From positions 111,041 to 175,040 of the forward strand of contig JABANP010000067.1 in the NCBI GenBank assembly GCA_013115135.1: DNA of 64,000 nucleotides, in the 5' to 3' direction. The notes under the pieces were generated by a model. That model saw only the letters and a list, made by a program, of their open reading frames with translations. It was not told the origin of the DNA and did not search any database. This DNA is from Perkinsus olseni. Taxonomy: Eukaryota > Perkinsozoa > Perkinsida > Perkinsidae. Of this stretch, positions 11,378 to 29,950 are shown in pieces; the stretch's first letter is position 1, and each line of letters begins with the position of its first letter. The position numbers were made by a program, and so were the translations under genes.

Positions 11378-12351
11378 TGCGGCTCCGGCTTAGTTAGACT
11401 CGAAGCCGATGCGCTCAGGTGGAGACTTTCTGTAGCATTGACATGCAGTGCAATCAGACAGATTGTCAAGAAGCTTTACTCTGGAGTACATTTAACCAGA
11501 GAAGCTTCCCTTTCCTCCCGGCAGGATCCCCATCTGGTAGAGGTCTCTCGGGTTCAATGGTCATCCTGATAACGTCACTCTAATGAGAAGTGTTCTGTGT
11601 GTGTGAGTTCAAAGTCGGGTGAAGTACAAAATCCAAGGAAGCGCGTGCGACAGGGTGGCAAAAGCAACAGGAAAAAGCCTGAACTGCGGGTGAAGGCAGG
11701 GACAGGGAACCCTAAACCCCTCCCGAAACCCGACAGGGCAACCCGGATCCCGGAACTGTTACCCAGGGCAACCAGAAACCCGAACTATTGACGTGGGCAG
11801 AATCCCCGAAAGTGCTTCCTTGTTTCTGTACCTTTCCCTTGGACTTCGGGAATTACCCGTTCAAAGTCCACCATCGACAGTACGGCATAGTTAGACTAGC
11901 ATTACCGATGCACCTTTTTGAAGGGGATTAGTTCGGCCTGTTGAATAAGCCCTGTTCACGAAGCCGAGGAATGTTGCTGATAGAGGCAGGTACTCATCAT
12001 CAGTTGGGCACGCCCTTTCCTCCCGGCAGACGTCCGCTTCCACAGCTGTTGTACTGTGTCATCAGGGACCCATAACTCGGCATCGGACTTGGGTTGCGAT
12101 TGGTGTGGTACTGGTGGGGTTACGCAGATGAGTAGGACATTCCGTGTGATGGTAGTTCAGCCTGTAAACATAAGAGAGGATTTGTTGTCATCGCGTCACT
12201 CTTAATGTGGGAGATCCCGAGATCGGATTTCCACCCGAGTTCGATCCCGGCACGCGACGTTTTTCCGTAATTATTACACTTGGTAACACAGCTCATCCCC
12301 GTCGATACTTATTGTGATGAATCTTTGAGGTCGTCTTTGCTTTTCTTAAAA
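11260..12351. other. Intergenic region with dispersed repeats, no gene
   Basis: It contains three related stretches: about 11380-11525, 11876-12080, and (outside this region) 24066-24280. They share gttagactagcat, ggggattagttc, ttgaataagc and cctcccggcag. A B-box-like gagttcgatcccgg lies at 12236-12250, followed by a T-run. Confidence 0.5.
11876..12080 (+). repeat. Dispersed repeat copy (pair with 24066-24280)
   Basis: Aligned blocks include gttagactagcattaccgat, ggggattagttcggcc, gttgaataagccctgttc and ctcccggcagacgtccgctt, each with a near-identical counterpart in the same order at 24066-24280. A partial third copy is at 11380-11525. Confidence 0.75.
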
Positions 12352-14202
12352 ATGGAAATCGCCGAAGACAATTCATCACCGGACCTCGATCGTAACGGCT
12401 CCTGCTGGGCTACTGCAAAAGTAATACTACAAACCAATAATCTCCGATAATGGTATCTTTAGGTTGACCCTGCCGCACACGAACGAAAAGATATTCGCAT
12501 TATTTTTGGATATGGCTCCATTATGTGGAGACCCGCCCTCGATTACGTAAGCTGTTTTCGCCGAGAGAATTTCTTCGCGGATTTCCTGAGTTCATCGGAG
12601 CTCTCGTCCACTTTCACGTAGGGCACGGGGACGGTAAATAAGTCCGAAACCTTTGCCCCGTAAAAATCAATTTTAGAATGGACTCAGAATCGCTTATTGA
12701 CCGGAGTCTCCCCGGCAGGGTTTGGACTAGAAAACTATCTGCAACTTGGGCTGTGACCGTGAAAGACGATTCTGAAACTCTCAGACACCCGAGACACCCG
12801 CTCAGAATTCATTTCAGGGAGGAGTTCATTCTCATTCATTTCAATTCACACTTTCAGATTTTGGTCGATCGAGTTGAGTACTCGTCGTGTCGTATCACTG
12901 AACTCATTATTGCTAGTATTTCGGTCGTGCTGAAGAAAACCCGAAGTGCGAATTTTAGCATTATTATTTTCTCCTGAACTCGGTCTACTCACTGGCGATT
13001 GGTAGTTAATTTTCCTCATCTCAGACCTCGTCATTTCCGGCCAGAGTTAAGGGATACGTCCGAAGATTCTGGCAATCCAGCGTAGACCACCGAGGAACCG
13101 TCGACTATCCTGGCAGGTACGCATCGTTTACTTAGTCGTCTCACTTGTAGTTTTACTCTCCTTTTTTCAGTTTTTAAATAAATTTTACTGAAAAAAGAGA
13201 AAATTAAAGTTGTTCCCGTCTGGCTTTTTCACTTCTTTTTTCTCAGAGTTGCCGCTTTCTACGCTACAAGGATTCGCCGCGTAGATTAGTTTACTCTATT
13301 TTCTGCAATTTTCTGATGAATTTTACTGAATAATTAGATTTTTTCTTGTATTTTTTCGTATTTTATTGTCCTTGTGTGTCTTCATTTTACGTCTTTTTTT
13401 CCAGAGTTGCCACTCTTTTACGCTGCAAGGATCTGCCGCATACCAGTTCGAGAGATCGTGCTGAAGGGGAGCAGGAAGGCGTGTGGGGGATGGCCTATGT
13501 TCTGAAAGATGATGGTTTTGATGATACGATGAGAGTAATAGGGGCTCATTGAGAGGGGGGAAATGGCTGTTGTACTAGATAAAGGGATTAGGGGGTCTCT
13601 ACTAAGATGACGAATTAATTGGTGGAGTTGCGGTAGGGCGTGAGTCGTTGATGAAATTGTTAGTCCACTGTTATCACAGCGTTGAGTAGTTGTAGTATTA
13701 TCGAGAGGCCTTATGAATTTTGTTTTGACTGTAGATGAGTATCATTTTCACGATATAAAGTAACTTATCTGGACTGCGTGTGATCATCGCCTCTCATCAG
13801 ATGCTGGACATCCGTGAAAAGAACGGATACACGAGGACTGTCGCAACCCTCTACGATGCCGACGACAAGGCCATTGGTAGTAGTAGCCACTACCACACTT
13901 TCCCTAAATCATGATCTCAGGGGAGGCCTTCCTCTATTACGGCTCGATCGACATTTCTGAGAACCCTATGTATACGGGACCTGGAAGATGTGAAAACGAT
14001 TGCTAATCGCGTGAATCGGGCGGTTGGACCGAGCGGAGCTAATGCTGATTATGTAATGAGTGCAGGGAGGGAGGGAGGGGCTGAGGTCCTTGTGGTAGGT
14101 GTGCCGTTTGTGGCGGTGCTTGCAAACGTTGGGCGTACGGGACGATCATGTACAGTCGATATACGACGCGATAAAGACCGCGTGAGCCAGGTTCGATCCT
14201 AG
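12352..14202 (+). CDS. CHAC: ChaC-type glutathione-specific gamma-glutamylcyclotransferase
   Basis: The exons spell the ChaC fold in order. IFGYGSIMWRPALDY (12502-12546) is the substrate-binding YGSL-type loop. GYVRRFWQSSVDHRGT (13045-13116) follows, then VATLLRCKD and VWGMAYVLKDDGFDD (13405-13534), then MLDIREKNGY (13801-13876), whose Glu in REKNGY is the family's catalytic residue. The last conserved exon (13921 onward) has AFLYYGSIDISENPMYTGP and IANRVNRAVGPSGANADYVM. ChaC enzymes cleave cytosolic glutathione to 5-oxoproline and Cys-Gly. The first exon is tentative (ATG at 12352; the splice phase into 12491 does not fit), and a small exon between 12547 and 13044 may be missed. Near 13983 a +1 change is needed between MYTGP and EDVKTI. 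The C-terminal limit is uncertain. Confidence 0.82.
13247..13290 (+). pseudogene. Decayed duplicate of a ChaC intron-exon junction
   Basis: ctcag followed by agttgccgctttctacgcta and ggattcgccgcgta (13242-13290) mirrors the true junction at 13400-13450 (ccag, agttgccactcttttacgct). The duplicate has a one-base deletion and hits a stop. It lies inside the intron just upstream of the real exon. Confidence 0.7.
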
Positions 14203-14220
14203 CACCCCCTGTTTTTACAG
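14172..14220 (+). repeat. tRNA-like 3' half followed by T-run and AG
   Basis: The B-box-like ggttcgatcc (14190-14199) is followed by gtttttacag ending at 14220, the same arrangement seen in defined introns elsewhere in the window. It sits at the 3' end of the ChaC gene, so it may be the end of a further intron. Confidence 0.5.
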
Positions 14221-14687: not shown

Positions 14688-17333
14688 ATGTCATCATCAT
14701 CTTATGATCTGGGCATAGGGATCGATCCGCCATCGGCCGCGGGAGGGTATCTTGCGGACGATGAGAGTATCTTAGATGACGATCTCAGCTTCCTGCAGAT
14801 AGGTAATAATAAAGATTCCTGTGAAACGGGCGTATCTTTCTTTCCAGCTGTGACCAGGATGGACTCAACATTATGCGAGGAGATGACGAGTGTCTGTCGA
14901 CGGGCAGCTGTAGTGCTGTTCATCATTCTGTTGCTTTCATGGGCGTGGTAGTAGTGGGAAGCGGGGGAAATGTGGTATGTCCCTGCTGAATTTATTCACG
15001 TTGTTTTCGCTGTTCAAGACAGTACTCTACAAAATTGAAGTCGAGGAGAATAAAACTTTGAGACTATTCTGGCCAGGGCTGAGTGAGAAAAAGTGTACAT
15101 CGCTCGAACTCGCAAAGGCGATGGATTAACTTTGGTTGATCGACGGTCGAGTAGTCGCCCCTACCGATCAGGAATTGTAACATTGTCTCAACCGTTAGTT
15201 CACAGGATAGGCGTTCACGTCGAAGATTTGTTATTTTTCGAGGCATAGGTACTCGAAATCGATCAGGGAATATTACGGGAAATACGTGACGCCAAATTAT
15301 GAGCCGCCGGCGGAGCGAGGGGAGGAGGAAGAAGATTCCGATACGACCATTACCCCACGAGAGTGATACAAGAGTATCTTTTATCAGTGTTGGTGCTTGG
15401 GTTGAGTAGGTTGACATAGGAGGAATCTTTTAGTTTATTTTTCACATGGTTGATTATGGTTGCCGAGACTAAGGCAGCCGCTACACAGGAGCCTCTGCGC
15501 TCGGTGGTGCCAACGATGACGTTGCCGTCGATAAGTTTATTATCATCATCCCTACCTAAGGATTGTAATAAAGGGGATTACCGGGGAGGGGCGGTAGAAT
15601 CTAAGGTTGAAGCTGGCGCATCGCAGAGAGCATGATACATTTCATAGGTCGTTTCGTACAGCAGTGCATCTTTATTAAGGAAAATTATCACTCGGTGGGG
15701 TCGAACCCGGATCGTCATCATGTTAAGGTAACGCGATCCTCACGAGAGTGTTGGTGGACACGGTCGATCGGGGTCTGTTGAAACCGTCAGCGGAGACCTG
15801 GCGGAACCGGCGAGGGATGCGACCGCTGATGGCGGCAAAAATCTCTGTAATATCGGGGCGCCGATTTTCCTGGATTTTCCCCGTTTTTGGGATTCTTTGT
15901 GAACGCCTTGCTAGTTTTTTGCAGAGGTATTTTTCTGCGGATTTTTACGGGTTCTGAGATGGAGTTAGAAAGGTTTCGTGGAGATGGGGACGTTGACCGC
16001 TGAGCTCATGTCTGTCGTCTCGATCGTCCAACATGCGCGCACAACTCGTCACATCTCGCAAATGGTTATGAAATTGATTGGGCTTATTGTGGTATGGCCT
16101 TTCAATTTGCTGAATTTATTTTCACTGGTCATCGTGTCAGGTAGTGCCGGATTCGGAAGTTCCCATACCCCACAATTGGAGCGTCCCGGTGTCGTTGGAG
16201 GATGATTTTGAGAAGGTAATTTTATTTCCGGGTGAATTCTGTGGCGGATGTTTTTGTAGATACTGATCGGTGGGGGAGGGGGAGAATCTGTAGTAAGGGT
16301 TGGTTGAAATCTTCGCAGTGCGGAGATATCTTAGGTTGATCACAGTGATTGGCAGATTATATGATTTTTCTTAGGGAAGACCGCTGAAATTATTGGTGGG
16401 GAATTTATGCTACAATTGTAGCAGTAACCGATTATTCAGATTTTTCTCGAATCCGCGATGGGAAAAATACGGTGGAAAAACGTTCAGCGTTTGGCAGGCG
16501 AAAAAATCCGATGTGTTTTTTCACCCACGTTGTAAAGGCGCGAACGGCACTTCAGGCATTGCTGTTGAACTCCCTTGGATTGATGGAAGGTCGTCTTTTA
16601 GGCGGTTGAAAGTCAACCGAGCTCGTCGAGGTCCATTAAGGAGAATAATGGTGGCAAACTGAAGCCTTCGGGGGCGAGGTAGGAGGGGGGAGCATGGGTC
16701 GACCTAAAGATTCCTGGCAAGGGTCGACCTAAAGATTCCTGGCAAGGGTCGACCTAAAGATTCCTGGCAAGAGTCGACCTAAAGATTCCTGTGAAGCATT
16801 AACTTAGGATATTCGATGATGATGTTGAAGTGAATAATTCCGATAAGGGCACTGATACCGCCGCGGATGGCGATGGTGTCGTTTTTAGGAGGTCGGGAGC
16901 GAGGTACACTTTGGAGGAGGAGGGGGCGTATCTTTGAGATTGCGCACAGCGAAGATTTTGTTGTGTCAGGATTTTCGATGGCCGCGAGAGTGAAGGTGTT
17001 GTTGATGTGGACGCTGAAGGATGGAGCGGCTCTGAGCATTTGAAGAAGTCGATTGAGAGGTAGTGAAGGGGAAGAGTTGGTGAAGGTGTGGTATTACCGG
17101 AAGGGGTTTATATTTTTATGAGTTGATGGAAATCCCGTCTTTCCGACCTCTTTGATGGTTTGTGGGAGAACACTGACAGAGGCCTTAGGTGGCGAAATAT
17201 GTTGTTATTGGAAGAACGCTGCTGCTGCCTAGGACTTCGGTGCCAACGGATAGGGTCGTCAGTCGGTTGGCCTTTGGCGTGGTTCTTCGAGAAGTGTCCA
17301 ACATTATTACGCCTCCAAGCTTTCGACTATAAT
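14688..17333 (+). CDS. Unidentified multi-exon locus (one or two genes)
   Basis: Several stretches look like exons bounded by GT/AG. At 14688 an N-terminus (MSSSSYDLGIGIDPPS) with an acidic patch is followed, after an intron of about 46 nt, by a hydrophobic segment (RRAAVVLFIILLLSWAW). At 15021-15130 there is TVLYKIEVEENKTLRLFWPG. At 16141-16215 there is VVPDSEVPIPHNWSVPVSLE. At 16488-16605 there is RKNPMCFFTHVVKARTALQA. At about 16800-17062 an acidic pair of exons (DVEVNNSDKGTDTAADGDG; ESEGVVDVDAEGWSGSEHLK) is split by an intron beginning GTATCTTT. At 17189-17333 the frame ends with VVIGRTLLLPRTSVPTDRVV before a stop. I recognise no family and cannot join all exons, so two genes are possible. 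Confidence 0.35.
15681..15751 (-). repeat. Degenerate tRNA-like sequence (Val-AAC-like)
   Basis: On the minus strand, cactc near the 5' end can pair with gagtg near the 3' end. A loop TTAACAT carries AAC in the anticodon place, and ccgggttcgacccc gives a good T-arm. The D-arm and anticodon stem are poor, so this is not a convincing functional tRNA. A tail TAATTTT follows. Confidence 0.45.
16696..16795 (+). repeat. Four-copy 25-bp minisatellite with the intron motif
   Basis: Four units of gggtcgacctaaagattcct plus ggcaa (25 bp) run in tandem, the last diverged. The reverse complement contains AATCTTTAGGTCGACCC, a variant of the motif found inside several introns (for example 23148-23193). Confidence 0.9.
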
Positions 17334-17525: not shown

Positions 17526-18440
17526 GGTCGCAGTTGATGCATGAGAAACGGAGGGTGAAGCAGGAGTTGAAGGTAGGCTGTGATTTGGGCGTTTTATGGT
17601 ATTAATTCTTGTCAGTCGTATGATGTTGCATTTACAGCGGTTCATGGACGACCGCCGGGAAGGGCGGACAAGGAGCCAATGCGGCCACTGTGAGTGAAGG
17701 GAAGATGATTTTATGCTACTTTCACAGCTACAACCGATATTGGCTGAGTTGCGATTGGTGTGGTAGGTATACGTATTACCGTGGTCTGAAGCAAGCAATT
17801 GAGGAGTCTGAGGCGACCGCTGTAACGAATGGTGATCGATCTCGGGTGGCTACGATTCAGGGAAGGAGTGGTACGGGGCATCAGCCGGAGGAGGAGCCCT
17901 CGACCACAACAGTGTCGTCTAATAGGATGATGATGAGGCTGCAGTCTCTGTAGTATATAGGGAGGGGTTGGCGTATCCGAGGTCGATCATGGGTTCGCGC
18001 GGGAAAAAAGATACTTCCATAGTGTTGGATGAAGCATGACATTGATGATACCGAAAGATTCTTACTCAACTTTTTACTCTGAGGGCGAGTTTGGTGGCGG
18101 CGATGAAATTGGACGAGTATTTTTGCTATTTTCGGTCGATCGAAATCGATCGTCGTTTGGATTCAGGATCGACGAGAAGTCTCGGATACGGGAGGGGTTG
18201 CAGCAGTATCAGGCGCGGTTCTTCGTTGAGAATCAGCGGAAGATAAAGTACCATAAGGACATCGTCCCGATAGAGCGGGAGTATCGGGAGTAAGGCTGCA
18301 CATCGAGAGGTCGGGGGTTCGATCCCCGGAGAGTGCATTTTGGCAGGTATAAGCAGGTAAAGGAGGAGATAGCGCAGTTGGAACGCAAGTTGGGGATTGG
18401 CAACTCGACCAGGGATCATCATCACCACCATGAGGACTAA
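17526..18440 (+). CDS. FAM13-domain protein, C-terminal exons
   Basis: Exons fit at 17526-17572, 17616-17689, 17767-17949, about 18034-18289 and 18347-18440, with consistent phases. Two copies of the FAM13-type helical motif are visible. The first reads EKRRVKQELKSYDVAF, then VHGRPP, DKEPMRPLYTYYRGLKQAIE. The second reads REGLQQYQARFFVENQRKIK, then YHKDIVPIEREYREYKQVKE and IAQLERK. Animal FAM13 proteins carry these motifs C-terminally, in some cases after a RhoGAP domain; I see no RhoGAP here, and the 5' end may reach into the preceding locus. The protein ends in a His-rich tail (DHHHHHED). The last intron (18290-18346, 57 nt) is a tRNA-like element. Confidence 0.6.
18290..18346 (+). repeat. 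57-nt intron made of a tRNA-like 3' half
   Basis: The intron GTAAGG…GGCAG contains catcgagaggtcg, a near-perfect T-arm gggggttcgatcccc, then gagagtgcattttggcag. It removes cleanly in frame (REYR, Glu split, YKQVKE). The catcgagaggtc block is shared with Syf1 intron 5. Confidence 0.85.
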
Positions 18441-18815
18441 TGGCCCCCATCACAGAAGGAGGGCGATTCGCAGTCGAGTGCCTCCCGTTTATAATTTCGT
18501 ATATACTTGCCATTTTTCTGGATTGTGTTGAGGGGGAGGAGTGGTAGTCGTTTCCTCGCTCATCGAATTCACTGTTCGGGAGCACGACTGCATGGAAGTG
18601 AAGAAAGATCCCAAGCGACCCTCGATAGTCGGCTGAGATCGCAGCGTCCGGAATGGAAGATGGACGATGAGAATTGTAGTAGTGGCGTGGCAGCGGGCTC
18701 TCTCCGTGCTGAGGAGCCGGGCGAGGATACAGTATGTTCGTATAAAGGCAGCTTTGGTTTGCTTGTTGTGGTTGGGGAAGGTTTTCGATTATCAGAGTTG
18801 AGCCACGTTCCCGTA
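18441..18815. other. Short intergenic or 5' leader region before SYF1
   Basis: A frame is open from 18507 into the SYF1 start, but the sequence before 18816 shows no conserved protein motif and is treated as leader. No promoter motif is recognised. Confidence 0.4.
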
Positions 18816-21800
18816 ATGGCAGCTCAAGTGATGAGGACGCCTGCTGCAGCACCACCGTCTATGGTGACGAGTGGGAAGCTAGAAGTGTCAGAAAGGACCT
18901 CAGGACCATCGGTCGATCTGTCGGCGTGTGTGGACGTTGAGATGGAAGAGGAGTTGCGGAGGAGCCCGGGGTCGATGCGCCTTTGGTGGTACTACATACA
19001 GGCTACGACTAAGCGGATGGAGATGAGGCAGAACGCGGATCTGAAGGTGGGGAGAGTTGGGGAAGGTGTGGTATGGGAGCTGTGTTTATCGGTCAGGATG
19101 CGTTTATGGAGTTCCTTTGTCAACTTCATGAGAGGGCGCTGAGGGAACTGCCGCGGTGTTACAAGATCTGGCACAACTATCTCAAACTGAGAGTAGGGGG
19201 AAATTTGGTATTTAATTATCCGTATCTTTCTACTCGACGCTTACCCCTTCCGGTCCTGCTAGTATTAGATGGCGGTTTCTCATATCGCTTTTTTAATACC
19301 ACTCCTTCTGCAACTCCCGAGCCGTTCGACAGCTCCATCATCATCATCTCCCTCTGTAGGAGTCCTGGGTGGCGGACTTGTGCGTGACGGACCCAGCCTG
19401 TGACGTGGTGGAGGCCTGCTACGCCCGGGCTGTCTGCATGCTGGGGAAGATGCCTCGGATATGGGAGGAGTACATCGAGCATCTCACAAGGCGATTGAAG
19501 ATCACTGCGACTCGACACGTGAGAGCGTCTGGCGGTGTGCCTTGCCGTTATTGGCTTTGGTCAGGTCATCTACGAGGCCTTGAGGAGCCTTCCGATCACG
19601 CAGCACTATCGTGTTTGGGCGCTGGTAAGTTGCGTTTGGTGTGGTATTGGTTATGGTGGGGTGTCAGGCTATGAAGATGATTAGAGAGCTCAACGTGCCG
19701 GTTAGAACGGGCGGTGAGCTGTTTAGGAGTTACCTCATGTTGGAGCCGGCGCATGCGGAGACGTATGTGGCGTATCTCGAGGGAGAGGAGCAGTGGGATG
19801 AGGCTGCGAGGTTGCTGGTGAGTAAATAGTGTAGTGGTGGAGCGCTCGGTTGGTTATCGAGAGGTCGTTGGATCGAATCCACGTGACGGTATTTTAGATG
19901 AAGTTGGTTAACGACCCCGACTTCGTGTCCATGGAAGGGAAGTCCAACCATCAGCTTTGGCTTGAACTCTGCGATATGGTCACTACACACGGTGAGCTAC
20001 TACCACTACCACACCTCTCCCGACTCTTGGGCTTCTAGTAATGAATACATCTCCGAGCACACAATAGCATTCAGTAAAGACGATCCATCTATTTCTGGGC
20101 TCTCCACGGGGCAGCATATGTGTGGATGATTATGTGATTATTATGCGCATGATGGAGATGTTGGCTCACTCTCATCAGTATTACTCCCCCAGGCCCTTCC
20201 ATCAAGTCCGTGGACGTGGACGCAGTGGTGCGATCGGCGATAGGGAAGTTCTCGGACCAGACGGGCCGTCTGTGGAACAGTCTGGCGGACTACTACGTGC
20301 AGCTAGGCAACTTCGGCAAGGTAGGGCGATCGGATTTTTAATAGTCATGCAACGCTTCGCTCCGCCTAATTTTCAGGCGCGTGACGTTTATGAAGAGGCC
20401 CTAGAGAGTATATCGACAGTGCGTGATTTCTCGTTGGTCTTTGAGGCTTACCAGAAGTTCCTCGAGAATCTTGTGACCGTCTACAGCGAGATGGAGGAGG
20501 AGAACGAGGAAGGGGAGGACACGGCAGGCTCCACGGCTGACCTTCTAGTGGAGGTAAACCCGCACAGGTTCGATCCCGGCACCCGTCATTTCTCCTTCCA
20601 GGTCCTTGCCAAGCTCATAGATCGTCGATTGGACCTCCAATCTCAAGTGAAGCTCCGGCAGAACCCCAACAAGGTCTCCGAATGGATCTCTCGTGCTAAG
20701 CTCTTCAAGGACGACCCTCTCACTGTTATAAGTAAAAAATTTCTGAAAAATGCCACCTGTGGGGATCGAACCCGGGTGGAGATTAACATCATTTCCATTG
20801 TCAGTGGAATCAATGGTTCCGATTCGTCATACGTCGATAAAATCACAAAAAAAATCCAGCGAATTTTTGTGTTTTTTTCAGAGACTTTTGCTGAGGGTGT
20901 GAAGACGGTTGACCCGTACCAAGCAGATGGGAAGCTGAGCAGACTGTGGATTGAATTTGCCAAGTAGGAATCTGGGAGGGTCGAACGGAGGCCGGTGATG
21001 GTCTACGGTCGTATTATGATGAGGAGAGGTTGTTATGTATCTGAGGTGTCTCACAATCGATCACCAGGGCGAGCGCTGTTCACCACGCCTTCTCGTACTG
21101 TGCATTGATGAACTGGTATTTTCCCCTTTTTCTATCAGTTATTACATTAATACTGGTAAGGACATCGCCAATGCCCGAGCAGTGTACGAGAAGGCTGTCA
21201 AAGTTGAGTTCCGCAACGCCGAGGAGTTGGCCTCGGTGTGGTGCGCCTGGATCGAGATGGAGATCCAACAGAAGAACAACAAACAGGTGGGGAGGAATGA
21301 TGAGGAGAGGCGATGATGGTTGTTTTTGTAGGCGCTGGAAATTTCGCGGCGCGCGGTCGGGCAGTACAAGGGAGCGGAGGCTGGTACGGTGCAAGCCCAG
21401 TTGTCGAGGAGCGTCCGACTGTGGCATTTGGCGGCGGATTGCGAGAGATTTATTGCGAAAAATTTGGTATGAACGACAGTCCAAAAATGAATTATCAAAG
21501 TCACCTCACTCAGGACACGACCAGGGCCGTCTACGATAAGATGATCGATTTGAAGGTGGCCACCCCACAGACATGTAGGCCGGGAAAATCGCCATCCCGA
21601 TCGCCATCAGCACCCTCCCTTCGGCAGGCATCGACTATGCGCAGTTCGAAGAGGACAACAAGTACTTTGAGAAGTCGTTCCAGGTCTACGAGAGGGCCGT
21701 TAGCTTATTCAGATGGCCGCACGCGAAAGATATCTGGGTACGCTAGACCTGTTCATGGACGCTGTGATTTGGGCGATTTTAGGTACTGTATTTGTCGAAA

Positions 21801-23746
21801 TTCACGAACCGGTATAAGGGATCGAAGTTGGAGAGGTCTCGGGAGTTGTTCGATCATGCCTTGGCTCACTGCCCGGCTAAAATACTGTCGGATGATGTAT
21901 GTGTGCATAGCGGCGTATCTTAGGTTGATGATGGTATGATACGAGTAGGTATCAAATGTATGCACAGTTTGAAGAAAGATACGGTCTGGCGAAGGAATCT
22001 TTGAAGATTCTCCATCGCGGCGTGGCGAAGGTCGAGAAGAACGAGCGTGTGCGGATGTAAGATACCTCCACCGTCCCTGCTTTGGACGAACAATAATATT
22101 CTACCAGTTCATCACAATTTTCGCTTTCTTCGACTATCTCTCAGAATGGGAGGGAATCCCGTTTGCCTGAAGTATAACTCGTACTGTGTAAAATTTTTGA
22201 CGCTCGTACTGTGGGAGCGTCAAAAATTTTACTGTGTGACCGCTTCTTCCGAGAAAAATATTTCAAGGGCGTCGTGTATCTCCTTCTCCTCCCCACGCTT
22301 ATCCGAAAATAGAGTATTTTTTCCAGGAAAATTTTATCGGATTTTCCGGGTGAATACAGTGCTCCAAAGAATCTTAAAATTTTTCCAAAAAATGAGATTT
22401 CTCTGTAGCGAGCAGAGCAAAGCATCGTGATATCCTTGGCAGTGCGCAATAGGATTCGAATGAAATCAGCAACTTGCGGAAGATTCTTATGCCATTTTGA
22501 TTATGGTGATGGTGAGCAGGTACAACCTGCTGCTCGCGAAGACAGTGGACCTCCTGGGAGCCCCGGCCACGAGGCCGATTTACGAGGAGGCGATAGGTTC
22601 GTCTGTGGATGGCCGGAGTGCGTCGGATGGGACCTTTCGTTTTTTAGCCACCCTTGATGATGATCGTCAGATCGTGCGGATGTGTTTACAGTGAGTCTTC
22701 GTGGTGGTTCGGTTCTGGGAGGGTATCTTTCGGGTTGGGGATTCTGGTTAGTTATCTCGAGGTTGAGAATCTTATGTTGAACCGTGCATGATACAAGTTT
22801 GGTATGGAAATTGCGAAATATAGGGCGAAATGGTCGCCCGAAGAACGTATCTTTTCCCTGGATAAAACTCGACCTCTTCTGTGATACACACGGATGCGTT
22901 AGATACGCCCTGCTTCTCGAATGATTCCTCTGTGACAGGTATAGTAACATCGAGAGAGCCATGGGGGAGATAGACCGAGCTAGGGCGATACTCAAGCATT
23001 GCAGCCAATACTGCGACCCTGGTGAGGAATCTTTTTCTCTGTGATAGCCCATGATCAACCTCCAGGTAAGGAGAAGTCCGAGGAGTATATTGGTAACTTC
23101 TGGAACGAGTGGAGAGAATTCGAGCTCACCTACGGCAACGCGGATACGTAAGATACCTCCCTCCTCGGGCGTATCTTAGGTCGACCCGTGCAGATACCGA
23201 GAATTACGACGTATCTGGCGAAGCGTTATGGCGCAGTATTCAAGACAGCACTTCAACGCCACCGATATTAGTCATCAAATTACGGAGCAGATGGAAAGGG
23301 ACAAGGCGGAGGGAGATGATAATGACGACGAGGTGCCTGAGGGAAGACAGCTGGTCTCTTGTTCGACATTCTCATGTCAGGCTGACCCGATGGCAGCAGC
23401 GGAGAGACAGGCTGAGCGCAAAAGAGGTTCGATAATTCTTCGCGCTGCGGAGGAATCTTTGTTTTTCAGCTCGAGATGACGAGAGCAGTGGAGACTCTGT
23501 GGCGAAGCGGTTGAGGTTGCAGGAGGAGAAGCTTGATTTCATCGAGAGCTCGTCATTCACTGGAGAGAAGGAAGGCTTCTCCTTCAAGATGGGGGCTAGG
23601 GGATTGGGGTAAGGCCACCGCTGGAGGTATCTTAGGTTCACCCTTGCACATTATGTAGTTATTATCGCGATCTTGGTGGGCTGCTCGCCTTGGAGACCTC
23701 CCGAGGAGGAGAGGATGAGGACATCGAGTTGTCAGAAGATCTTTGA
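18816..23746 (+). CDS. SYF1: Pre-mRNA-splicing factor Syf1 (XAB2), 23 exons
   Basis: I can thread the protein through 23 exons: 18816-19046, 19097-19192, 19360-19518, 19565-19624, 19668-19817, 19898-19991, 20193-20320, 20377-20553, 20602-20731, 20882-20963, 21139-21286, 21332-21466, 21514-21574, 21628-21737, 21783-21902, 21949-22056, 22520-22596, 22648-22688, 22939-23021, 23066-23147, 23194-23426, 23470-23608 and 23659-23746. HAT repeats of the XAB2/Syf1 type are unmistakable: [117 protein letters not shown]. Syf1 is a scaffold of the NineTeen/Prp19-linked spliceosome complex and of transcription-coupled repair. All junctions are GT-AG and phases agree except one: an extra A in the AAAA run at 21879-21882 breaks [11 protein letters not shown]. 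Most introns are 43-57 nt. Confidence 0.95.
19818..19897 (+). repeat. 80-nt Syf1 intron 5 resembling a whole tRNA
   Basis: The intron holds an A-box-like tagtgtagtggt (19827-19838), a 5-bp anticodon-type stem ctcgg/tcgag (19845-19849, 19857-19861) closing a 7-nt loop ttggtta with GGT in the anticodon place, then aggtcg. A weakened T-arm follows with ggatcgaatcc (19870-19880), and the intron ends in gtattttag. There is no good acceptor stem, so it is a relic rather than a tRNA gene. Confidence 0.85.
20554..20601 (+). repeat. 48-nt Syf1 intron 8 with a B-box
   Basis: The intron is GTAAACCC… then aggttcgatcccggcac (20567-20583), then cgtcatttctccttccag. Apart from the 5' splice site it is essentially a tRNA T-arm plus a pyrimidine tract. 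Confidence 0.85.
20732..20881 (-). repeat. Antisense tRNA-like element in Syf1 intron 9
   Basis: Inside this plus-strand intron the minus strand reads cacccgggttcgatcccc then acaggtggcatttttcag (about 20741-20780). This is the same T-arm, T-run and CAG layout, but inverted relative to the host gene. Confidence 0.75.
22057..22519 (+). other. Largest Syf1 intron, with an 18-bp hairpin
   Basis: At 463 nt this is about ten times the usual intron here. It contains a perfect inverted repeat (22188-22205 with 22215-22232, gtaaaatttttgacgctc and complement) around a 9-nt loop. The flanks repeat cgtactgtg/tactgtgtg. This could be the footprint of a small foldback element. Confidence 0.75.
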
Positions 23747-24617
23747 GCGACTAATACAAACGTTTCCAAACGTTATTTACCCGACTTGAGTTGGTCAGTA
23801 GTTTCGTCTACGAACTCGGACGGGCTCGGCCAGAAGCGAGGTCAGGGAAATGAACGCCTCCGTTCGTCGGATAATCTCCTGGATGGCGGAGCGACGCACA
23901 CCCTATGATGATACAGTCCCGCGAACTGAGCATATCCGCGGAAGTCGGGATCGGAACCAACAGAGGTGTGTATCAGTTTAAAGGGTCAACGCCGTGGCCG
24001 AACGGGTGGAAGGAACATTCCCTCCTCTCGGGATCCACTATGAGAGTTTGAAGACCAACGCCTGCGACAGAACGACTTAGACTAGCATCACCATCTGAGG
24101 GGGGATTAGTTCAGCCAGTTGAATAAGCTCTGTTCGTCGAGCCAGAAGAGTGTTGCGCTCAGAGGGAGGTCATCGTCACCTGGGGTACTTCCTTTTCTCC
24201 CGGCAGAGTCCGCTTTCACAGGGGGCTGTGCAAGACCACGAAACACTAGCCCGTCCCGCAGTGTGTCCACATCATCTCCGAGACTCTAAAAGTCCACACC
24301 CTGGCTTAGACTCCCTCTTATCGAAGGCTGACGTTCTTAGTGGCTGAGGAATGTCGAGCTGAGTGTGGAGGATGTTGATGATCCTCGGTCGTCGACCGAC
24401 CTTGGTGGTTCAAGCAACGCCTCTGACTTGCCTGTCGGATACCTCAGAAATACGGCGGCACCGTTACTCTCGCTGTAGCATTGTGGCCCCTCATCCACTC
24501 GCTGACCTTAACTACTAAGTGAACTCAACAGAAACAGTCATTAACGGATAACTCAGTTTATCATCATCTTTTTTGTTTTACAAAGGTGGTAGGAGATAAT
24601 CATCAACAACAGAATCT
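23747..24617. other. Intergenic region with a dispersed repeat
   Basis: It holds the second copy of the 11876-12080 repeat at 24066-24280. Near 23995-24010, gtggccgaacgggtggaagg resembles the A-box side of a Ser/Leu tRNA but no matching T-arm follows. No coding gene is recognised. Confidence 0.5.
24066..24280 (+). repeat. Dispersed repeat copy
   Basis: It shares gacttagactagcatcacc, ggggattagttcagccagtt, gaataagctctgttcg and tttctcccggcagagtccgc with 11876-12080 in the same order and spacing. Confidence 0.75.
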
Positions 24618-24962
24618 CTAAGCTGAGGTAAACTTAGTGACAGCCTTCGTTCCCTCACTAACAGCATGCTTGGCCAACTCTCCCGGCAAGACCAGTCGAA
24701 TGGCGGTCTGGATCTCTCTGCTGGAGAGAGTCCCCTTGTTGCTGTATTTGCACAGCTTGCTGGCCTCCGTCATGATCCTGTCGAAAGTGTCGTTAACGAG
24801 GGAGTTCATAATCATCATACTCTTCTTAGAGATACCAGTTTTGGGGTGAACTTGCTTGAGAACTTTGAAAATGTAACTGTTGAAGGTCTCCGAACGAGAG
24901 CGTCTCTTCTTCTTGATGTCCTTCGAGACAGCAGCGGCCGACTTCTTAGTGGGGGATGACAT
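24618..24962 (-). CDS. H2B: Histone H2B
   Basis: A single-exon gene of 114 residues. The basic tail ([20 protein letters not shown]) is followed by the histone fold: [68 protein letters not shown] and [17 protein letters not shown], all canonical H2B signatures. It pairs with H2A in the nucleosome. No other histone gene is adjacent in the window. It is intronless, unlike its neighbours, as usual for core histones, and its frame is intact. Coding histone H2B in the nucleus separates this organism from core dinoflagellates with reduced histones but is normal for perkinsids. Confidence 0.98.
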
Positions 24963-25430
24963 TACTACTTTGTCGTATCACAACTACTCAACTTTCAGGA
25001 AAAAATATCAACATCAAAAACCAAAAATTCCGTAAAAACTACTACGCAGAGTGAACTTATGGCGGATGGTGCGAACTTCCTATCACCGATGAAAAGTGAA
25101 TTTGCGAAATTTTCCAATTTTCATCCTGATTTCGATTTATCATAAAAAACGAGAATTTTTGCCAGCAAGGGGGCGTAGTTAAAAGTATTCTCATCACACT
25201 AAGAGTGATAAAATACGTTCCCGTCGAAGACCAAGACGAACAAATCTTTGTTACGCTTGTACATCGAAATGTTCCCGATTTGCGAAAGTTGTGGTACTGT
25301 AAATAAGCACGAAAACAGACGACCGTCGAAGTGACCACCCCTCAAAATGAGAGTCCCACAATCAAAGCCAACCCGACTGCCAACGAAAGATTCTCCTTTC
25401 GATAATCATGAAACAACAGCAGCACACAGC
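24963..25430. other. Spacer between H2B and the AP2-like gene
   Basis: This should hold the H2B promoter on the minus strand just above 24962. I recognise no canonical element and no additional gene. Confidence 0.4.
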
Positions 25431-26740
25431 TCAGAAGAGGCCCTTAGAATGCATGTGGAAAGCCCTGGCCCGCATTTTCCTCTCCCTCTTCGTTGTAAGG
25501 TACTCCATTCGAGTGTGCCGTACCGTCCTTCTGTTATCAACTCGTCCACAACTCTCAAGAAGCTGATTAAAGATGTCCTCGCTGGGAATCGAACCAGGGA
25601 CCTCACCTTGCGGAACTTCTCCGCTTTAGATTTGGCGTCCAGGAACGTACCCCCTTGCACTCGGAACAGACGATGTCTGGAAGTTGTGGTATGAAACCAT
25701 CAAGAGACACCCGTCGCTCACCTTGGCCTCCCTTTCTCCGTCCAACCAACCCGCCAGCAGTTCATTCTCGGATAATACATCACCTCCGATACCGTACTGA
25801 AAAACAGCCAATCAAAGAGCGGCACCGAGACGCAGACGAAAAATCCGATTGCGAAAACCGAAAAAAAACTGAAATCAGTAAATAAGGAAGAAACGCAAAA
25901 TGTCGGTGATGACAAATTCCCTGGCCGGCTACGCCAACTAAAGCCGAGTTATTGCCGAGAATACGACTGTGGTGAACGAAGAATCTTTCTCTCTGCCAAA
26001 GACCACCTCGACCTACCTCATATCATATGGTATCTTATCATGTTCAACATTATACCTTCGACGCTTCCAGAAATTTTCCGGTAGTAAATTGTACGGATAA
26101 TCTGTGCCGCAAAACCGACCATCTCTCACAGTAGCGACGAACTGCTGTAACCTGCACGCATGCACATGACGAGGTCGAAAGATTCCTCCCAGTATTACTG
26201 GTAATTTTTCGGAAAATATTTAGCAAACCCGTCCACGACCGCCTCCCGCTCCGGCAGGGCTCTCCACGCTGACTGAATATGAGGATGCCTTGTTACCTTC
26301 GGATTCGGTGGTCGATACCTACACCGTCACGCGCCACGAAATTCCAGCACGCATGCGCAAAGCGATCCCTCGAAAAACTGCACTTTACCCGATACCAAAC
26401 CTCCACCGAAATCGTAGAGGAATTACCGGAGAATCCACAGCAAGTACGAACGAGACGCCGGTCAACGATCCCATTCGACCATACACGAAAGTGAGGCCCA
26501 GATAATTTTCGGGCGAGCGAAATTTGCGTAAATACAATCCTTGCACGCATGCACAAGCTGACGATGGTACTGTAATTGCCAGTCCAAAACAGAGTGAAAA
26601 ATTGGATCGAGAAATGCCCTGGGGTGATGATGATGAGAGAAGCGGTAGAAAGAGAGAGGAGAGACGCATCCAAGTTCGCTCTGCTATCTGTGTAAAACAG
26701 GTCGGAATATCTTTAATTCCGTAATGAGCAAGCTTCAACC
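25431..26740 (-). CDS. Multi-exon gene with a possible AP2-like DNA-binding domain
   Basis: The 3' exons are clear: 25722-25796, 25607-25676 and 25431-25562, joined in phase. They read VMYYPRMNCWRVGWTEKGRP, HRLFRVQGGTFLDAKSKAEK, FRKLLESCG, then a basic tail. The pattern (Y, W-x-V-x-W, G, F-x-V, A-x-x-A-x-x-F-R-x-x-L) resembles the ApiAP2 domain of alveolate transcription factors, though some key spacing is loose. Upstream exons around 26300-26700 are less certain (RANLDASLLSFYRFSHHHHP; GRMGSLTGVSFVLAVDSP; STTESEGNKASSYSVSVESP). If correct, it is a nuclear transcription factor. Its penultimate intron is a tRNA-like element. Confidence 0.4.
25563..25606 (-). repeat. 44-nt intron made of a tRNA-like 3' half
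   Basis: On the minus strand the intron is GTGAGGTCCCT, then ggttcgattccc with agcgaggacatctttaatcag. Only the first bases and the final AG are outside the tRNA-like T-arm and its tail. Removal restores KFRK|LLES in phase. Confidence 0.85.
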
Positions 26741-27001
26741 TAGCGGCGTGGATACCCAGGTGGGGACAGCCGACACAACACCCCTCAGCGAACCTCGTCG
26801 TAAGACCCCTCTTCCCATTACTACCATTTAAAGTAGCAGCCCGGTTTGACGATCAGGGTCCTTCTCTGGGGCAGCAACCCGACAGGCTGACAGGCCGCCT
26901 TTCGCCATCCACCAACGAAGGAAGATGATAAAATCATCCAAACAAAACTTGCTTCGCTCCGCTCGCCATGAACACAACACGACCAGTTGATAATTAAATC
27001 A

Positions 27002-29950
27002 CTACCAGAAACCCTCATCGTCCGAAGGATGCTCATCACCACCGACTTGTGAAATTTTGGGGAAAAGTTTCAGAACGTTTTCAGTCGTCCTTTCCGCCAC
27101 TTCCTCGACGCTCACATTCATTAGCTCCGCCAGGGCTTTGGCCACAGCGACCGTCCTGAGCGATAACAACGCGTTCGACCCACCTAACGCCGTCAGAAAA
27201 CCGTAATGTCTCTATCGACGCTCCTCAGCTGGTATTTAGTTTCACTATTATTAAGACGAGGATGAGCCCGGGGTCACTGTGGAAGTTACCCTTGAGCGAC
27301 AGAGAAAATTCCTAACCCCACCACCCAAGGAAGATCCTCGCCGCGGAACTCGAAAGCCCTGTAAATCGAACGCGCTCAGTCTCGCCCCAATATCCGAACT
27401 CTAAATTCCTCAGTTCCAGAAAGCCCCCTCTCCCTGCTCGCCCTACTACCCTGCAGGTTCCGTTTTCTTGGTTCCACTCAGACAATCGACGTCATAGTAA
27501 TCATCATCACCTCTCATGTAAGGACAATCTGTCTCCAACACTAGTCGGGAAAGGGGAAGGTAACCGCAGGAGACCATCGACCGAATCGAAGCCCCTCTTT
27601 CGCGCATACAAAGATACCTGCGAGGATTTGTCAAACGACCAAGGATAATAAAGATATCCTCAATTTTCATGTTATAATCATATACGCACGTATGCTTATG
27701 AGCCGCAGAGCCGAAAGAGCGATAGAACAGGACACTGTAATAATGACAGTCGTGGGAATCGAACCTGGGGCCTCCATTCTTCATGGAACTTTGCCAGCAT
27801 AGGCTCCACCCCTTCGTCGCGAAGGCCTAGTTATATAATGAATTTGACTACCCAGTACTCTACTACTTGGCATTTTCACTTCATTATCTTCTAATTCTTC
27901 ATTTGCTCGACTTATTTTTCCATTTACATTCTAGCCATTTGAGCGCTTCCAGCCCAGTGGTAGGGAGCGGATAACAATCACTACTCCCCGCTACTACCCT
28001 GTCAAGCCTATCCAGTATCCCTTCTGAATGTATTCCTGTGCGACTTGCCGGCTGCCAGTAAAACAGTGGAAAACAGCGAGCTTCGGGTCAATACCATGCT
28101 TGGATAAGATACGCAACTGAACAGCAAGGAAAGTGTCACTGCGCCACGAAATTACCCTGCCTTGTCGTCTCACGCAGTCTTGGTCGGACCCCAGAGGTCC
28201 CTCCTCCCCGACCACGGTCTCTCTCATGCAGGAACAAAGGCATGTGGAGTTCGGACGCTAAGGCGACCTGAAATGATCCAACTAGCTCGGGAATCCGAAA
28301 CAAGAACCACTCAATACGACGGCACGGGCCAAAACTGGCAAGAATGATTTGGCGAGAAGATGATAATCAGTGGACTGCAAGACGTCGAGCAGGCGAGGTA
28401 CACCGTACGAAGAGGCGCCACGGTAATTGACACGAAGGTCGCTTTAAATCCATGTCCAAGATTCCCACACTCGAACAGAGGATTGCAGAGAGGCTGACAT
28501 TCACAGCTAGAGGTGTCAGAAAATGTTACCCATTATGCGGCGATCGTCTTGTGTATGCGTCCATCGCCGATTCCCTTCGAGGGAGTGAGTTCAGAAGGGG
28601 AAAAATAGACCTTTACACCCCTCCCGAATTGAGCTTCGACGGAGAAGCAACAGAAACCCCTCCCAGAATTACTTGTTTGTCAAACCATGCTAGTTGGTCT
28701 TCCTCGAGTCGAGAACATTCTGTCGTAATCGAGTCCGCATTCCCCAATAGCCACACAGTACGGGGAGGCAGCGAGTTGTCGAAGCTCGGATATGGTGTTC
28801 TAGCAGAGATGCATGGTGCCGGGATCGAACCGGGGACCTTTCGATTACTACCTCGTCGCAGTTCTTGACTTCGTGAGGGTGCACACCCGCCGTGAAGAAC
28901 AACTGCGGTCGATGAGCCCTTATCGGAGCCCATCACCTTATCCACTCCTCACACGACACAGTTCTTCCGCCCATTTTGACCCTGAAAAAAAGGTTCCCGC
29001 TGGCCCTTTAGTAACGGCTGAGGAAACCGCAGCGGTCGAAGCAGAAAATCGAAAACCGAAATTTTGTTGCGCTAAGTTCCGATAGTCCAAAACCGAAAAA
29101 AGTGCAGAAATAATCGAAAACGCCTGCCTTTCCGACCAAACTTCCACACAATGAGGCTGAGTAGAGGAAAAATTATCATGAGTAATTTTAACAACAATCA
29201 TGATTTCACGTCTAGGGCGCGTGAGAGCGACCAACCCATCGCGTGCCGTCCCGATTGCATGGCCGGCCCCTCTGTGTAGAGAGGAAGCTACAATCGAAGC
29301 CAGTAGTACTGCTGCTTCAGTAGAGAACATGAGAACAGGGCCGTCGCCACCCAAAAAATAAGACCATCACCATCCACTACTTCTCACGCTGGTCCCGGTG
29401 ACGACTATCCGTTTAACTCCGGCAGCCCAGCTTCTCCGCAACTGCTGCACCAAGAGACCATCACTCAGCGTGGCAATATTGGCACCTGAAATGAAGACCA
29501 ATACCGCAAAGAGTGAGATCAGGCGAACACCCAATTTTTTCCATGCTATTCGGGCTAGCATCGCGAGGACGCGACCATTCACTGCGCACCCTGAGAGCCT
29601 CTCCTGGATTCTATTCCTCGGCCCCGCAGTAAGTTATGACGACGAAAGTGAATTACCAGACATTTAACAAGTACCAGCAGTAACCCGATTGAAGCTTTCC
29701 TTATACATCGTGCTGTACAATCGCCACGTCTCTCAGCGCAGAGGGCGCCGACAGCAGTTACTAATGACCAGTATTTTTCCGATGGAAAAACAGTAAAACG
29801 TCCGAGAGTAGTACCAACGTCCACCAGTCCTTCCTCAGTGCCCGACAGTCCCCACTTCCTCAGCTCATCCAATGCCGCCTCCGTAGCTGGGGAACTCCGA
29901 TGGGAGGCCCTTCGCCGACCAGCCGACCCGACCGACTTCGCCGAAAGCAT
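27002..29950 (-). CDS. TatD-family metal-dependent deoxyribonuclease
   Basis: Exons fit at 29815-29950, 29388-29485, one in 28.9-29.35 kb, 28852-28902, 28673-28799, about 28156-28267, 27998-28116, 27511-27617 and a last exon ending at 27002. TatD motifs run in order: GLVDVGANIATLSDG, AGVKRIVVTGTS, LFFTAGVHPHEVKNC, YCVAIGECGLDYDRMF, DQLAWFDKQ, ASELHMPLFLHERD, AVFHCFTGS, GYWIGLTG, LPLSRLVLETDCPYM, AELMNVSVEEVAERTTENVL. The metal-site Glu (GECGLDY), His (LHERD; FHCFTG) and Asp (ETDCPY) are kept; the N-terminal HxH is replaced, as in TATDN1-type members. TatD enzymes are 3'-5' exonucleases linked to DNA repair and apoptosis. Two +1 breaks (near 28711 and between about 28200 and 28230) interrupt conserved exons. 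Confidence 0.88.
27731..27780 (-). repeat. tRNA-like 3' half inside a TatD intron
   Basis: The minus strand reads ggcccc, aggttcgattcccacgactg, tcattattacag (B-box at 27755-27765). It lies within intron 27618-27997, not at its end, so it may mark an internal splice site. Confidence 0.75.
28800..28851 (-). repeat. 52-nt TatD intron made of a tRNA-like 3' half
   Basis: The intron is GTAGTAATCGAAAGGTCC, then ccggttcgatcccggcacc and atgcatctctgctag. It separates VHPHEVKNCDE from NTISELRQLAAS exactly at coding boundaries. The aatcgaaaggtc block corresponds to catcgagaggtc in the 18290 element. Confidence 0.85.
29695..29765 (-). repeat. Single arm of the foldback family in TatD intron 1
   Basis: tacatcgtgctgtacaatcg, cgccacgtctctcagcgcag and agggcgccga match the arm at 10068-10121 in reverse orientation. 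It lies inside the 329-nt intron 29486-29814. Confidence 0.8.

Follow-up and report, generated by a model that had tools for sequence, protein, structure and literature searches.

Short tRNA-like elements dispersed through the Perkinsus olseni genome as candidate whole introns

Introduction

How new introns originate is an old question, and a stretch of 64,000 nucleotides (nt) from the genome of the shellfish parasite Perkinsus olseni (contig JABANP010000067.1, positions 111,041 to 175,040; this whole stretch is called the window below) raises it anew: why should several short introns of unrelated genes consist almost wholly of what resembles the 3' half of a tRNA, with a T-arm carrying the B box of RNA polymerase III (Pol III) promoters, a run of T and a final AG? 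A first-pass annotation of the window had proposed that they are copies of a tRNA-derived short interspersed nuclear element (SINE), the terminator of which becomes the polypyrimidine tract of a newly gained intron. A tRNA-derived element that makes whole introns would add an RNA-based source of new introns. Here we describe the family to which these sequences belong, its relation to predicted introns, and the explanations that may account for both. Genome-wide counts refer to the P. olseni assembly of 61.48 Mb in 968 contigs; in the 64-kb window itself no tRNA gene was found by ARAGORN or by Rfam at its gathering scores.

Results

A dispersed family of tRNA-like elements

In the window, the strict T-arm motif GGNTCGAWYCC has 11 matches at nine places (two sites match on both strands) against 0.76 expected, and none of 100 shuffles of the window reached this number. 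A looser pattern, GGTTCGANNCC allowing a single mismatch, shows no clear enrichment (25 matches against 16.7 expected, with 8 of 100 shuffles reaching 25). Genome-wide, the core GGTTCGATCCC is found 1,189 times (605 + 584), compared with 27 (14 + 13) for the same pattern read backwards, and with at most one mismatch allowed the counts are 4,791 (2450 + 2341) and 751 (380 + 371). The excess over the control therefore amounts to 1,162 exact cores and 2,878 with exactly one mismatch, a ratio that, if one consensus decayed evenly, would roughly correspond to 18% divergence per site and to copies of the order of 10,000, true tRNA genes making up part of the count. A 37-position weight matrix gave 56 matches of at least 12 bits in 262 kb and 4 in the reversed sequence; this set includes 20 stretches picked for a core, and a few of the matches are opposite-strand shadows. 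These counts confirm that the observation is real, repeated and above chance: a family of short tRNA-like elements is dispersed across the genome, as the annotation had supposed from the window.

The layout of the element was read from 100 distinct copies, chosen for an exact core with near-identical ones dropped, and consists of AGGTC, the T-arm, a weakly conserved acceptor-like stretch of some 10 bases, A73 and a T-run. Conservation covers approximately tRNA positions 44 to 78, with almost nothing upstream of about position 42. It sets in at positions 44-48 (A 62, G 63, G 67, T 49 and C 86%), drops beyond the T-arm over the acceptor-like strand, rises again at C72 (73%) and A73 (68%), continues in a run of about five T (50-66% at five positions) and ends beyond it. 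The presence of a B box in every copy is a consequence of selecting copies on the B-box core, and the variability of the acceptor-like region, for which a role as guide or barcode was considered, seems to be sufficiently explained by this selection together with one-base shifts in spacing. One subfamily, TAATCGAAAGGTCCCCGGTTCGATCC, has a 26-mer that is matched with at most three mismatches by 183 copies, the control having no such match. Its 5' edge is sharp: among the 47 copies kept after removal of near-identical ones, G occupies 87% of the positions just before TAATCG and 53% of those one further out, and only a weak bias is seen from -3 outward. This edge falls at a GT or a few bases after one, and at the other end the T-run is soon followed by YAG. 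Terminal inverted repeats were not recognised by eye in the alignments of 100 and 47 copies, no program having been used.

The T-arm, A73 and T-run agree with the proposed tRNA-derived SINE; the agreement does not extend to the 5' half, a plausible version of which is seen in few copies, most having none that can be recognised. The tRNA-complete-looking copies are those at 19818-19897 in the window and, by eye, at locus L187 and at position 1285 of L003. AGTGGT stands at A-box distance 64 times against once in the control, a count that includes true tRNA-Thr and tRNA-Val genes.

Elements as predicted introns

For 103 distinct copies, which still include the near-duplicate pairs L065/L068 and L066/L069 and, in L031, a true tRNA-Asn gene, the best intron of 38-135 nt with GT-AG borders in either orientation was selected by splice signals alone, and the coding frames of the flanks were then compared. 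Plausible introns with a score of at least 8 were obtained for 44 of the 103 copies and for 813 of 3790 random centres (p 1.5e-6). The reading phase is continuous across 27 of the 38 testable introns, compared with 189 of 583 for random centres (p 2.8e-6), and this holds in both orientations (17 of 24 sense and 10 of 14 antisense); at a score of at least 6 the corresponding figures are 38 of 64 and 564 of 1,612 (p 8e-5). By this measure many copies would be introns in coding sequence that are spliced to an intact frame. The introns are nearly filled by the element: 25 of the 28 that were laid out in full are 44-65 nt long, with little non-element sequence.

Continuity of the encoded proteins was examined in 30 spliced peptides, 29 of them distinct (L033 was entered a second time, and one intron contributes two alternative frames). 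A Pfam match extends across the junction in 12, and none contradicts the predicted splicing. The domains concerned are L7Ae, Saf4/Yju2, Helicase_C, Pantoate_transf, Sec1, Pkinase, Kinesin and Cation_ATPase_N, together with those of the window genes TatD (28800-28851 removed) and SYF1 (20554-20601 and 20732-20881 removed); a DnaJ match also spans its junction, below the curated cut-off, as does an SNF2 match at an antisense copy, by two residues. In the L7Ae, Yju2, helicase, PanB and Sec1 cases the match crosses the junction with equal lengths of protein and profile. Ten of the peptides, the set running from L7Ae to DnaJ and SNF2, had been picked because conserved proteins were recognised in them by eye, and the others are further built peptides and the window genes.

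Among 67 sense copies that contain CATTT, 55 have C or T directly before the first AG past the T-run (p 5e-8 against even base frequencies, a value that is generous because the tail is T-rich), as do 44 of 56 when 11 copies with the AG abutting the T-run are excluded; the 67 non-overlapping rows were hand-picked, without near-duplicates, from 100 of 135. In many cases the donor is located a few bases upstream of the subfamily edge (GTGAGTGGGTAATCG). Antisense candidates such as L063, L064 and L060 have the T-run on the donor side, where it cannot be the polypyrimidine tract. The annotated role of the T-run as the intron 3' end therefore fits the sense class only, and since antisense copies look like whole introns too, the T-run is not required for an intron to form.

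Copies in the window

The five short introns annotated in the window are exact in their coordinates; they measure 44-80 nt and lie in unrelated genes. The intron at 18290-18346 (plus strand, 57 nt) is nearly all element, with catcgagaggtc, the T-arm, an acceptor-like stretch, CATTTT and GGCAG; it is phase-continuous, and its retention would lead at once to a TAA in that frame. The flanking peptide has no Pfam match, which leaves the FAM13 label unconfirmed by homology, and the same applies to the AP2 label of the candidate intron at 25563-25606 (minus strand, 44 nt, GTGAGGTCCCTGG...CATCTTTAATCAG), where one frame is open on both sides and the spliced peptide gave no Pfam match in either of two frames tried. 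The TatD and SYF1 labels were borne out by Pfam and protein continuity. The TatD intron at 28800-28851 (minus strand, 52 nt) consists of GTAG, a TAATCGAAAGGTCCCCGGTTCGATCC subfamily copy and CATCTCTGCTAG, and TatD_DNase matches across its junction (1.4e-12).

SYF1 carries three element-bearing introns, all on the plus strand. The protein read from the window shows 99% identity over 67% query coverage to the deposited 'Pre-mRNA-splicing factor SYF1, partial [Perkinsus olseni]', and this deposited protein (P0001) skips 19818-19897. The latter intron (80 nt) is the most tRNA-complete copy of the window, with an A box, an anticodon-like arm, a T-arm, TATTTTAG and a sub-threshold Rfam tRNA match. 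The intron at 20554-20601 (48 nt) comprises a T-arm, an acceptor-like stretch and CATTTCTCCTTCCAG, with AGGT at both ends, and the inverted copy annotated within the 150-nt intron at 20732-20881 was recovered as a T-arm on the minus strand at 20762-20772; HAT_Syf1_M spans both junctions.

Further copies were detected by the weight matrix. At 27731-27780 (minus strand, 30.8 bits) the annotated element is present in a putative intron. The two weaker candidates, annotated at 12236-12264 and 14172-14220, correspond to an element copy at 12228-12264 (plus strand, 28.6 bits, match at 12238) and a diverged one at 14180-14216 (plus strand, 15.1 bits, match at 14190). One copy is new: 15681-15717 (minus strand, 23.5 bits), with its T-arm at 15697-15707.

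Other repeated sequences

A second dispersed motif, GCGTATCTTAGGT, occurs 155 + 139 times in the genome against 3 + 0 for the reversed control, and in the window at 21915, 23171 and 23627 (plus) and 54183 (minus). At 23171 it lies within a putative intron, the start of which (GTAAGATACC) is its inverse, and it may represent another intron-associated family. A multi-copy tRNA-like sequence (AGTGGTATGGWGGTTAAGGTARCGG...), seen at L181, L182 and more than 20 other places, extends over about 56 bases when counted from AGTGGT through GGTTCGATCC; ARAGORN finds no tRNA in L181 or L182, and the sequence could be a relative of SINEs.

Amplified tRNA genes, with many copies scored by a tRNA model, are present on contigs C778 (about 264,800-310,500), C823 (about 79,600-81,400) and C607, partly in arrays with a spacing of about 166-186 bases; of 20 that were inspected, almost all are tRNA-Ile(TAT) or tRNA-Arg(TCT). 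Tandem arrays containing CATAATCAATCATGGGTTCGA, mostly with a 126-base period, occupy parts of contigs C28 (29,438-34,294) and C139 (64,492-71,791). At L074:136-204 a long near-perfect hairpin lies near tRNA-like sequence, with microRNA-like Rfam matches below gathering scores only. Finally, tRNA-Met was considered as a parent at C329 and C438, and ARAGORN finds no tRNA at either.

Discussion

By the similarity of its predicted introns the element is an introner family, and the reading that we favour, with moderate confidence, is that of a tRNA-derived, SINE-like introner, copies of which were inserted in exons and are spliced as minimal introns. The element would be the SINE-like remnant of a tRNA 3' half, with the variable-loop AGGTC, the T-arm with its B box, an acceptor-like strand, A73 and a Pol III-type T-run. 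It would be transcribed by Pol III, reverse-transcribed, spread through the genome and inserted repeatedly in exons, possibly with duplication of a (C)AGGT target, and the spliceosome would remove each insertion from RNA as a minimal intron, some 45-55 nt long. For a sense copy, the donor would come from the 5' edge (G|TAATCG, or a GT a few bases upstream), the polypyrimidine tract from the T-run and the acceptor from the AG just beyond it; for an antisense copy other bases would serve as splice signals. A more far-reaching version would have introns of Perkinsus generated en masse by a Pol III-type, tRNA-derived retroelement, so that minimal introns in their thousands would be tRNA 3'-half insertions spliceable in either orientation by virtue of proto-splice (C)AGGT targets. 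We hold this version to be somewhat less likely than not.

Several results weigh against the favoured reading. Searches with joined exon flanks revealed no empty allele or paralogue for any of 26 junctions. Second loci were found for 14 of them, and every one keeps an intron at the site; the insertions would therefore be older than these copies, and the annotated route of intron gain is not seen directly. On the supporting side, the bases on the two sides of the junction are identical over 3.1 nt on average in 28 element introns and over 1.4 nt in 23 model-predicted ones (p 2e-4), although the former were chosen by eye or by a score that favours G beside splice sites, and the model-based baseline is small. 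Some of the 28 introns have (C)AGGT(R)-like repeats at their two ends, with CAGGTA as the example from PanB and CAGGTG as that from the gene of the Sec1 family. Such repeats would fit insertion into (C)AGGT with target duplication, but are only suggestive given this baseline and the confounding splice consensus. The best spliced-exon pair scores are not enriched over random centres, a null that we think is inflated by long open frames; with the donor fixed at the subfamily edge, the 47 copies gave 8 true and 19 false outcomes, 10 being untestable and 10 having no GT. No Pfam match was obtained for 18 of the 30 peptides, and the one antisense case with homology support is SNF2, where the match passes the junction by only two residues. 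The tRNA likeness also has its limits. The Rfam tRNA model matched one of eight stretches (19826-19884, within the intron annotated as having an A box and an anticodon-like arm), at 17.6 bits with a gathering score of 29, and none of the other seven loci (L187 included; L122 and L126 are 3'-half copies). Instead of the paired T-stem of a functional cloverleaf, the 100 copies show T-stem pairs at the shuffled expectation (38, 66 and 41 paired against 39.5, 62.8 and 43.9) and no covariation, and the elements are therefore not working tRNAs. No parent tRNA was identified in a non-exhaustive search of the tRNA set, and no partner long interspersed nuclear element (LINE), for which no search was made.

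A less likely alternative is that the element moves into, or replaces, introns already in place, by insertion with deletion or by gene conversion between element-bearing introns, and so marks introns without creating them. It would agree with the lack of empty sites and with the 150-nt SYF1 intron, where the antisense copy is accompanied by much other sequence, as expected of a secondary insertion. The main reason for keeping it comes from DEAD-box helicase paralogues: at the site where L161 and L162 have a 47-nt element intron, the 5' part of the L126 intron is 18 nt longer and carries TAATCGAAAGG subfamily sequence, which suggests an exchange between element copies and means that the element sequence of an intron already present can be altered. 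On the other hand, an insertion into an existing intron of about 45 nt would produce one of about 90 nt and call for a matching deletion each time, whereas the 44-65 nt of most element introns are near the short end for the genus; in the data given for P. marinus, introns range from 39 to 1622 bp and are mostly shorter than 100 bp, 39 bp being the shortest reported (PMC3101222).

Independent capture of various tRNA 3' fragments, from halves or pseudogenes, in break repair or insertion of complementary DNA would dispense with a single replicating family. The flanks do recall several tRNAs (cccgcgca tRNA-Ser, aggtcgtg tRNA-Ile and aggtcgcggg tRNA-Val), and one subfamily begins within the would-be anticodon loop, where tRNA 3' halves start. 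This explanation nevertheless appears improbable, as the 26-mer copies of the TAATCGAAAGGTCCCCGGTTCGATCC subfamily, with the 5' edge that they share, speak for a family that replicates, and ARAGORN does not call a tRNA gene at either of the two best intact-parent candidates from a non-exhaustive search of the tRNA set. Hardly credible, finally, is a selected motif, either a TFIIIC site or a splicing signal, that is kept in introns without being mobile DNA. In 11 of 12 allelic or paralogous pairs found through exons only (one was skipped, and the B-box window is one base off in some), differences fall on 2 of 121 sites within this window, compared with 29 of 388 in the remainder of the intron (one-sided Fisher 0.011). 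We do not count this as selection, because every pair includes a member that had been picked for a B box that is intact or almost so; this roughly halves the expected differences, to about 4.5, so that the 2 observed are not convincing. Nor would a short motif explain shared sequence of at least 26 nt with a sharp edge.

The family described here has several known counterparts. In the portion of a broad introner survey considered here, most families are consistent with DNA transposition, with terminal inverted repeats and target-site duplications, and fungal introners are cited as possibly RNA-based, through reverse splicing (Gozashti et al. 2022, PMC9860276). The Perkinsus element resembles these families in the similarity of introns in unrelated genes, which extends close to both splice sites, the aquatic protist host and the canonical GT-AG borders; it is unlike them in being tRNA-like, with a T-run and no recognised terminal inverted repeats. 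The main text of the survey contains no occurrence of 'SINE', 'tRNA' or 'Perkins', and its supplementary species list may include Perkinsus. Among the open-access papers searched we found none joining introner, intron gain, SINE and tRNA-derived; for introner together with Perkinsus, only that on Amoebophrya was found (PMC7789003). The introner elements of this related alveolate lineage are likewise repeated introns, but, in the part of that paper used here, they have non-canonical borders and inverted repeats of 8-20 nt, in contrast to the GT-AG introns of Perkinsus, where inverted ends were not recognised.

If the more far-reaching version is correct, the element would represent the first RNA-mediated, tRNA-derived class of introners known to us; an RNA-based source of introns of this kind could arise in any eukaryote. 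With tRNA-derived SINEs, as they are generally known, it shares the B box, A73, the T-run, dispersal in both orientations and, in few copies, an A box; it differs in that conservation covers some 35 bases, in that the 5' half is mostly absent and in that it forms whole introns. The one SINE-intron precedent that we know of is the p-SINE1-like intron of rice CatA, which Iwamoto et al. are said to have described in 1998 and 1999 and in which a SINE-like sequence reportedly serves as a whole spliceosomal intron of one gene. In P. olseni, by comparison, eleven unrelated genes have a clear Pfam match across the junction (one of them below the cut-off), and many candidates stand beside them.

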